From: Coleophoma eucalyptorum
Taxonomy: Eukaryota > Ascomycota > Leotiomycetes > Helotiales > Dermateaceae
Reading direction: 5' to 3'
DNA: 64,000 bases
Assembly (NCBI GenBank): GCA_026120035.1
Contig: JALRME010000053.1
Span: 89,508 to 153,507 of the forward strand
A program made the translations under genes and the position numbers. This document shows, piece by piece, positions 24,157 through 26,246 of the stretch (the stretch's first letter is position 1; each line of letters begins with the position of its first letter). The notes under the pieces are model-generated. The model was not told where the DNA came from, made no database searches, and saw only the letters and a list, made by a program, of their open reading frames with translations.

Positions 24157-26246
24157 TTAGATACTGACGCCATTTGAAAGTCCGTTCGTTGTCTCCTCCG
24201 CGGTCAACACCTGCTTCGTGACCCGCTCCAAACACCCTGCTGCTGCAGCTACAAATCCCAGGTATGGCTTACTGGGTTGAAGAACCCGAGACAGATATTC
24301 TGGATGGAACTGAACTCCTACGTACCATGGGTGATCCTTTAATTCGATGATTTCCATGCGAACACCCTTGTCATCCTTGCCAATGAAATGTAAACCAGAC
24401 GAGCCCAAGCGCTCAATATACTCGGGGTTGACCTCGTAACGGTGACGGTGACGCTCATTAATGGCCTTTTTCTCACCATATAGCTTGCGCAATTTAGACC
24501 ACTCACTACCCTCCTGGAACAAAGTAGGCCGTGACCCAAGTCGCATAGTGCCGCCAAGATTGGTCTTATCGATCTCTGGCATGAAAACGACAACGGGGTC
24601 GGGGCACTGCTCGAAGAGCTCAATAGAGTTTGCATGAGGAATATCGCATACATGGCGTGCGAATTCAATGACTGCAATCTGCATACCGAGGCAGATACCT
24701 AAGTAGGGTGTCTTATTCGTACGAGCCCACTCAGCAGCCTTGATCATGCCTTCCGTGCCTCGGTGACCGAATCCTCCAGGGACAAGAATGCCATCGGCGG
24801 TGCAGACTTCATGCCACGCCTTGTGGAATTCAGCAGGGTTGTCGCCCTTTGCTTGATCCTCCAAGTTTGAGGCATCGACCCAAATTAGATTGAGCTTCTT
24901 CCCACAGTGCATTGCCGAATGCTCGAGGGATTTGATAACACTGAGATATGAATCGTGAAGATTGGTATATTTTCCAACAAGGGCAATAGTAACGGTATCA
25001 AAGAGGCGATCTTGGGCGGTTGTCAAGGCCTTCCATTCATGCCAAGTCTTTTGTCCTTTGGCAACGAGTTTTGGGGCCATTTCGACGGTGTCAAGATTGA
25101 GAATGCTTCGAATTGTGGAGATCAAGCCTTGTTGTTCCAGCAGAAGGGGGACATGGTAGGTTGAAGAGACATTATGAACCGCAATAATATGTTCCGGCTC
25201 GACTTGGCAAAACATTGCAACCTTGTCAATAGTAGATCTTTCCAAGGGGACATCGCATCTACAAGCAATCTGCACAATAATTAGTGAAAATCAAAGTACT
25301 CCTGGCACAGAGTCTGCCCTACCAAATCTGGGCTCAAGCCAGCTCTTGCGACATCCCGGAAAGCCTGCTGAGTTGGTTTTGTCTTCTGCTCGCCTTGAAT
25401 GACGGGGACCAAAGAGACATGGATCTGCATAAAGTTGCCCTTTCCTGCTCTTCTCTTGAGCTGTCTCATAGCCTCAATGAAAGGTGCACTCTCAATGTCT
25501 CCCACAGTGCCACCAAGCTCGATTATACAGACATCAGGGCTCTCGTTAGAGTCATCAACAGGAATTCTAGCGACTCTCTCAATCCAATCCTGGATAGCAT
25601 CTGTAAGGTGGGGCACAACTTGAACAGTTTTTCCCAAATAATCGCCTCGTCGTTCCCTCTCAATAACGTGCTGGTAGATCTTGCCAGTCGTGATATTGTT
25701 CTCACGAGTCAGGGTAATGTTGAGATAGCGCTCATAATTTCCCAAGTCCAAATCAACCTCCCCGCCGTCATCGAGAACAAAGACCTCACCGTGCCTGGCT
25801 TGGTATTAGTATCGGCGTGCCTAACTAGCCTGAGAACTGGTCATACTCAGTAGGAGCCATAGTTCCGGCATCGACGTTCATGTAGGGATCGATCTTGATA
25901 GAGGAAACGTAGATGTGGTGTCAGTCCAAGCACTTCTCTTGACATGTCGAATGCAGGTAACCTATCTTTAAACCAATGGTCTTCAGCAGCAAGCCAGTGC
26001 TTGAAGCTGCAATCGATTGTCAGCCCCATGCTGTGTATAGCCAATACAAATCTGCACTCCATATACTACTGTACTGTGCTGCAAGAGAGTTTCGAGGGAG
26101 GGGTATTCACCGATAACACCCTTTCCGATGCCTGAAATGACACCTGCAAAATAGTTAGCATAACTTGTGGCTCAGAGAAAGGTTCCGAAATATATATATA
26201 TAGATAGAAAACCGTACGCACCTCCAGATACTAGGACGTACTTCAT
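24157..26246 (-). CDS. URA7: CTP synthase
   Basis: Exons 26246-26222, 26143-26111, 26006-25966, 25908-25847, 25794-25323 and 25269-24157 give 581 aa, close to the yeast Ura7 length I recall (579). The enzyme makes CTP from UTP, ATP and glutamine in the cytosol. The synthetase domain shows MKYVLVSGGV, GIGKGVIASSTG, KIDPYMNVDAGTMAPTEHG and CIIELGGTVGDIES. The glutaminase domain has Cys404 in YLGICLGMQ and the VQFHPEYLS motif. Five introns interrupt it. Four are GT..AG; the third, 25965-25909, can restore the conserved frame only with AT..AC ends (see separate entry). The enzyme looks intact. Confidence 0.95.
25909..25965 (-). other. Predicted AT..AC intron of the CTP synthase gene
   Basis: On the minus strand the exon ends ..GGTTTAAAG and the intron begins ATAGGTTACC. 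It has a CTGAC branch-like site and ends CACCACATCTAC before GTTTCCTCTATCAAG. Length is 57 bp, phase 0, after codon 33. The joined protein reads KTIGLK-VSSIKIDPYMN, the expected family sequence. No GT donor lies in phase 0 nearby, and an in-frame TGA precedes the next exon with no AG acceptor until CAAG. The donor is like ATAAGT and lacks the U12 consensus ATATCC, so a U2-type AT..AC intron is the best reading. Confidence 0.75.

Follow-up and report, generated by a model that had tools for sequence, protein, structure and literature searches.

Terminal AT-AC dinucleotides are typical of U12-type introns. The pair is also found in introns that depend on the U2 spliceosome, as in the sodium channel genes (e.g. 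SCN4A intron 21), for which a 'trap' has been proposed in which both ends must change together and T at +6 aids recognition (PMC2831892). Among fungi, AT-AC makes up 0.019% of annotated introns (PMC7072748), and U12 splicing has been concluded to be missing in Ascomycota and Pezizomycotina (PMC2846911). Budding yeast is without a U12 spliceosome, and there AT-AC ranks second only to GT-AG in efficiency (PMC6726248), while an RNA-seq study of Fusarium lists AT-AC among its non-canonical pairs, the gene going unnamed in the available text (PMC3577648). The precedent nearest to our subject comes from Botrytis fabae, in which RNA-seq supports non-canonical introns in 16 genes, CTP synthase being one, and six of the donors read ATANGT; that report found no special role for them, its accessible parts assert no conservation outside Botrytis, and its main text gives neither the identity of the CTP synthase intron, nor its membership of the ATANGT group, nor an AC end (PMC10971195). 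Our literature searches found no paper joining an AT-AC intron with CTP synthase (the looser AT-AC match was a maize paper) and none besides PMC10971195 on ATANGT in an intron context.

We analysed a window of 64,000 nt from the genome of Coleophoma eucalyptorum (45.26 Mb in 101 contigs), in which intron 3 of a CTP synthase gene is best read as AT-AC. It concerns the same gene, in the same order (Helotiales), as the Botrytis case, and its donor ATAGGT fits ATANGT (PMC10971195, main text). V-ATPase subunit E, also named in the Botrytis paper, has three introns in our genome (on C12) that are GT-AG by eye, so the non-canonical one is either not shared here or lies elsewhere. With the described sodium channel introns our intron shares the AT-AC ends, G at +5 and the T at +6 of the trap scenario (PMC2831892); it differs from the SCN4A intron in that it is 57 nt long and lies in a metabolic gene of a fungus, from a group for which U12 splicing is reported to be missing (PMC2831892, PMC2846911). 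The budding yeast SUT635 protointron and mutated yeast introns likewise place AT-AC on a fungal U2 spliceosome, as would be the case here, but the yeast report, in its accessible text, has no standard intron that is normally AT-AC, whereas here AT-AC gives the only enzyme-preserving parse found (PMC6726248). U12-type AT-AC introns have the same terminal dinucleotides as ours, with donor and branch motifs that ours does not resemble.

The gene runs from 26246 to 24157 on the minus strand, in six exons with 581 codons and an intact frame (Table 1). Its product carries PF06418 (CTP_synth_N, 398 bits) and PF00117 (GATase, 138 bits), which identifies it as a CTP synthase, and the top database match among the best 120 listed is from Coleophoma cylindrospora (Helotiales, Leotiomycetes), at 98% identity over 540 residues. 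Four of the five introns are GT-AG, intron 3 being the exception.

Table 1. Features of the CTP synthase gene, in window coordinates
Feature	Position	Strand	Remark
Exon 1 with ATG	26222..26246	-	
Intron 1, GT-AG, 78 nt	26144..26221	-	
Exon 2	26111..26143	-	
Intron 2, GT-AG, 104 nt	26007..26110	-	
Exon 3, end reads ...ASSTGLLLKTIGLK	25966..26006	-	
5' splice site AAG|ATAGGT	25960..25968	-	pairing with own U1
Intron 3, AT-AC, 57 nt, phase 0	25909..25965	-	best-scoring product of exon 3-4 block
CTGAC branch-like site, A at 25921, 12 nt from intron end	25920..25924	-	motif match
3' splice site TAC	25909..25911	-	
Exon 4, start reads VSSIKIDPYMNVDAGTMAPT...	25847..25908	-	
Intron 4, GT-AG, 52 nt	25795..25846	-	
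Exon 5	25323..25794	-	
Intron 5, GT-AG, 53 nt	25270..25322	-	
Exon 6 to stop; whole protein 581 aa, PF06418 + PF00117	24157..25269	-	

On the minus strand exon 3 terminates ...GGTTTAAAG at 25966 and exon 4 opens GTTTCCTCTATCAAG at 25908, with the intron between them reading ATAGGTTACC...CTGACACCACATCTAC; its first bases are ATAGGT and its last CTAC, so that the terminal dinucleotides are AT and AC. Splicing it out joins the exons in phase 0 to give GLK-VSSIKIDPYMN. An earlier note on this DNA had placed the intron at exactly these coordinates and had given the same junction and phase, which joining the exons reproduced, and the CTGAC that it had named as a branch-like site is present, with its A 12 nt before the intron end. 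The in-frame translation of the intron is IGYLHSTCQEKCLD*HHIY, and read-through stops at an in-frame TGA (25923-25921), which the note had likewise pointed out. This TGA sits within the CTGAC. Because the bases at the edges differ, the placement at the mature AAG|GTT junction cannot slide.

Alternative parses were sought exhaustively. Within the exon 3-exon 4 block, all donor and acceptor positions separated by 30 nt or more were paired, with any dinucleotides, which gave 2014 in-frame, stop-free site pairs and 1197 products, each scored against a profile. The AT-AC product ranks first of the 1197, at 1129.3 bits, on a profile of 181 homologues that were picked for a clean junction and so bias the scoring toward that junction. 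The runners-up are 1-5 bits lower, with TA-CG, AG-GT or GG-TT ends at 1128.0 bits; since these are not known splice-site pairs, the score tells the place of the intron and the dinucleotides decide its ends. The block holds 13 in-frame, stop-free AT-AC pairs in total. Two of them use the same donor with a nearer AC end, at 25915 (adding IY, 1122.3 bits) or 25918 (adding HIY, 1120.8 bits), that is 7-8.5 bits lower, and homology indicates that both are probably wrong, so they were dropped. The contention that no usable GT donor lies nearby proved right, none of the 28 canonical (GT/GC-AG) pairs in the block being both in frame and stop-free, as did the contention that the available AG would cost required residues, the first AG of exon 4 (25894) falling after SSIK. 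A second scan covered exons 2 to 5 and allowed up to three GT/GC-AG introns of at least 40 nt, with products taken in the frame of exon 5; the best of its 12,170 products scores 125.8 bits, which is 46 bits short of the 171.8 reached by the AT-AC model. Searching the genome DNA with 561 bases of the gene returned the locus itself as the sole match. Of the parses found, the AT-AC form of intron 3 alone leaves the enzyme intact.

One database record resembles a spliced message. On its contig of 2112 nt, the reading frame of P0005 is already open ahead of the ATG and crosses a clean GLK-VSSIK junction. Two other records match it closely: P0031 (Cadophora malorum), whose annotation starts only at MNVDAG, with 99.8% identity, and P0046, which opens in what seems to be unspliced DNA preceding exon 5, with 100% identity across 535 residues. 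Given the open upstream frame, the clean junction and the near-identity of P0031 and P0046, P0005 is probably a spliced cDNA.

Traces of the intron remain in the protein models of relatives. The lists from three protein searches, each holding the best 120 of 7998, 7957 and 7288 matches, comprise 241 distinct proteins. Among these listed proteins the junction is clean in 194 (which could equally mean that the intron was lost, is GT-AG or was annotated correctly as AT-AC), is followed by foreign residues after GLK in 15, lacks the end of exon 3 while retaining VSSIK in 12, and is truncated or otherwise broken in 20. The foreign stretch starts with I in 14 of the 15 cases and with M in the remaining one, which implies an ATN codon, since a retained GT-AG intron in phase 0 would start with V. 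At the other end, the residue directly before V(S/T)xIK was scored in 20 broken models, namely eight of the 15 foreign-residue cases plus the 12 without the exon 3 end; it is H in 17 and Y in 3, never Q, K or E. H or Y points to a CAC/TAC or, equally, a CAT/TAT end (YAC or YAT), while Q, K or E would be expected from an intron ending in AG. The other seven foreign-residue cases have no intact V(S/T)xIK (P0024, for instance, reads RHV-IDPY and P0170 NT-TAIK) and were left out of this count. By displayed names the 15 cases come from 15 genera and the 20 from 16, and as they are related by descent rather than independent we claim no probability for either pattern. The foreign residues themselves vary from genus to genus. 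Their second residue is S, G or C in 9 of 15, as ATANGT predicts (chance 0.014 under a crude model), a result to which we give little weight because ATATCC also encodes I-S.

The affected proteins, at least those looked up, fall in eight Pezizomycotina classes: Pezizomycetes (Rhizina), Lecanoromycetes (Lasallia), Lichinomycetes (Phylliscum), Arthoniomycetes (Alyxoria), Dothideomycetes (Kalmusia), Geoglossomycetes (Glutinoglossum), Eurotiomycetes (Ophidiomyces) and Leotiomycetes (Lachnellula, Cadophora); Thelocarpon, also affected, is placed in Thelocarpales incertae sedis. Rhizina stands outside leotiomyceta, the clade that holds the other affected lineages looked up. All 71 proteins new to the third search, Dothideomycetes and Sordariomycetes included, are clean at the junction, as are the listed proteins named as basidiomycetes or Schizosaccharomyces. 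A CTP synthase filed under Persea americana (P0211) has an N-terminus like those of the listed Dothideomycetes and is possibly a fungal contamination, and an Ascosphaera CTP synthase fragment (P0136) is labelled 'Ubiquitin-conjugating enzyme E2 7, partial'.

Pairwise alignment of the 241 proteins with the window protein gives at intron 3 a total of 25 gaps, 20 starts downstream and six alignments that are continuous with less than half of the residues around it identical, a tally that treats two of the 15 foreign-residue cases (P0013 and P0058) as intact, their alignments having no gap. Gaps elsewhere number none at intron 1, one at intron 4, four at intron 5 and 12 at intron 2, every one of the last in proteins gapped at intron 3 too. 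The gapped models therefore fail mainly at intron 3 rather than at its GT-AG neighbours. Truncation takes out introns 1, 2, 4 and 5 in 23, 22, 3 and 1 models, and since it also spans introns 1 and 2 it implicates intron 3 only in part. In the nearest relative, P0001, the annotation begins at MNVDAG, downstream of intron 3. We also sought relatives' DNA with a degenerate peptide pattern from exon 4, which matched once among viral contigs and matched at least 116 stretches among genome contigs, the 80 listed all having bacterial or archaeal titles; the scans yielded no fungal DNA.

The genome holds a second CTP synthase (C19:601948-605535) of 562 aa, 67.6% identical to the copy in the window. 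Its three introns, all GT-AG, correspond in place to introns 1, 2 and 5, and it has no intron at the AT-AC position or at that of intron 4. Since this paralogue exists, the window gene may not be essential alone.

For the splicing machinery, we searched the genome for spliceosomal RNAs. Three U1 copies, full length though below the Rfam gathering score, start ATACTTACCTT; against this U1 the donor AAG|AUAGGU forms seven Watson-Crick pairs and one G-U pair out of nine positions, being paired at -3 to -1, +2, +3, +5 and +6, with the wobble at +4 and a mismatch only at +1. The donor is U2-like in having G at +5 and T at +6, and the CTGAC, with its A 12 nt from the intron end, has the form of a U2-type branch site, as a motif match rather than a mapped branch point. 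U2 snRNA gave three matches and U6 snRNA one. U11, U12, U4atac and U6atac gave no match in the genome at E<=0.001, in searches where the U1, U2 and U6 matches are the sole positive control, the control genomes being prokaryotic and none of them giving matches. The donor ATAGGTTA agrees with the U12 consensus ATATCCTT at 4 of 8 positions, and the U12 branch consensus TTCCTTAAC is matched at best at 5 of 9 positions within the last 45 nt, so that neither motif is U12-like. The domain zf-U11-48K had no match in the genome, a weak search in that the tRNA methyltransferase TRM13, which we had presumed would match it as a control, was likewise silent. With no canonical alternative, with a U2-like donor and a fungal branch site, and with no U12 motifs and no U12-class snRNAs found, the reading of intron 3 that has the best support is a U2-type AT-AC intron. 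The earlier description of a U2-type AT..AC intron in an essential gene is thus supported as to the spliceosome type, on the donor, the branch site and the snRNAs, and doubtful as to essentiality, given the second CTP synthase.

That an overlooked minor spliceosome removes intron 3 as a U12-type intron is suggested by the AT-AC ends themselves and by the Rhynchosporium model P0013, in which GLK continues as I-S-F, codable by ATATCCTTT; it would also be helped by the want of a eukaryotic control in the snRNA searches. Donor and branch site both depart from the U12 consensus, however, the four minor snRNAs were not found where U2 and U6 were, zf-U11-48K points weakly the same way, and the group has been concluded to be without U12 splicing (PMC2846911, as far as its available text goes), so that we hold this explanation to be very unlikely.

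If instead the intron were canonical GT-AG and the enzyme differed in sequence near residue 34, the several database models that are parsed in that manner (e.g. GLK-INY-VSSIK and GLK-IYPYMN) would be correct; yet no canonical pair in the block is viable, the multi-intron products score far worse, the foreign residues of the relatives vary by genus, and a solved CTP synthase chain, 7rmc, aligns gap-free over the junction, all of which leaves a canonical intron scarcely plausible. Damaged ends, whether a step toward a pseudogene or a double assembly error, might be tolerated thanks to the second CTP synthase, whose gene is without intron 3. Against such damage, the remainder of the gene is intact over its 581 aa and six exons and close to its Coleophoma match, the DNA search matched only the locus itself, and the ATN...H/Y signature in other genera makes a local error unlikely; we give damage hardly any credence.

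We therefore prefer the reading in which intron 3 is a real AT-AC intron, U2-spliced, ancestral to the affected Pezizomycotina and persisting through an end-pair trap, and put the probability of this reading as a whole at about 88%. From the sequences at hand, both AT-AC splicing in C. eucalyptorum and its U2 route are probable. The usual terminal Gs of introns interact in splicing. In the mechanism that we propose, U1 would pair with AAG|AUAGGU except at +1, CUGAC would serve as the branch site, and the usual G pair would give way to A as the first base and C as the last. Recurrence of the ATN...H/Y signature in broken models across classes suggests that the intron is old and shared with its AT-AC ends, which the last ancestor that Pezizomycetes had in common with the other affected Pezizomycotina probably already possessed. 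The ends may have persisted because a change at a single end would harm splicing, which is the trap. The earlier note had expected the ancestors to be GT..AG and the two ends to have changed together in this lineage, whereas the protein records suggest that AT..AC was already ancestral; a recent paired mutation in this species was dropped as a candidate, the relatives carrying the same signature. A further idea, tentative and on balance doubtful, is that intron 3 is a relic of an AT-AC intron of the U12 type which moved to the major spliceosome when fungi lost the minor one and stayed AT-AC-locked through the Pezizomycotina radiation, maybe retained since slower splicing tunes CTP synthase output.

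In kind the intron is ordinary; it is unusual in depth, being probably old, and has a partial precedent in print in Botrytis fabae (PMC10971195, in its main text). As far as the literature was searched, two things appear to be new: the depth that the intron seems to have, and the harm done to annotation. At the junction 47 of the 241 listed models of CTP synthase, that of the nearest relative included, are not clean, probably because gene finders disallow AT-AC. If the intron is as old and widespread as it seems in a group without U12 splicing, it would offer a natural setting in which to test how an A-C end pair comes to be accepted by the major spliceosome, and also why AT-AC introns persist.
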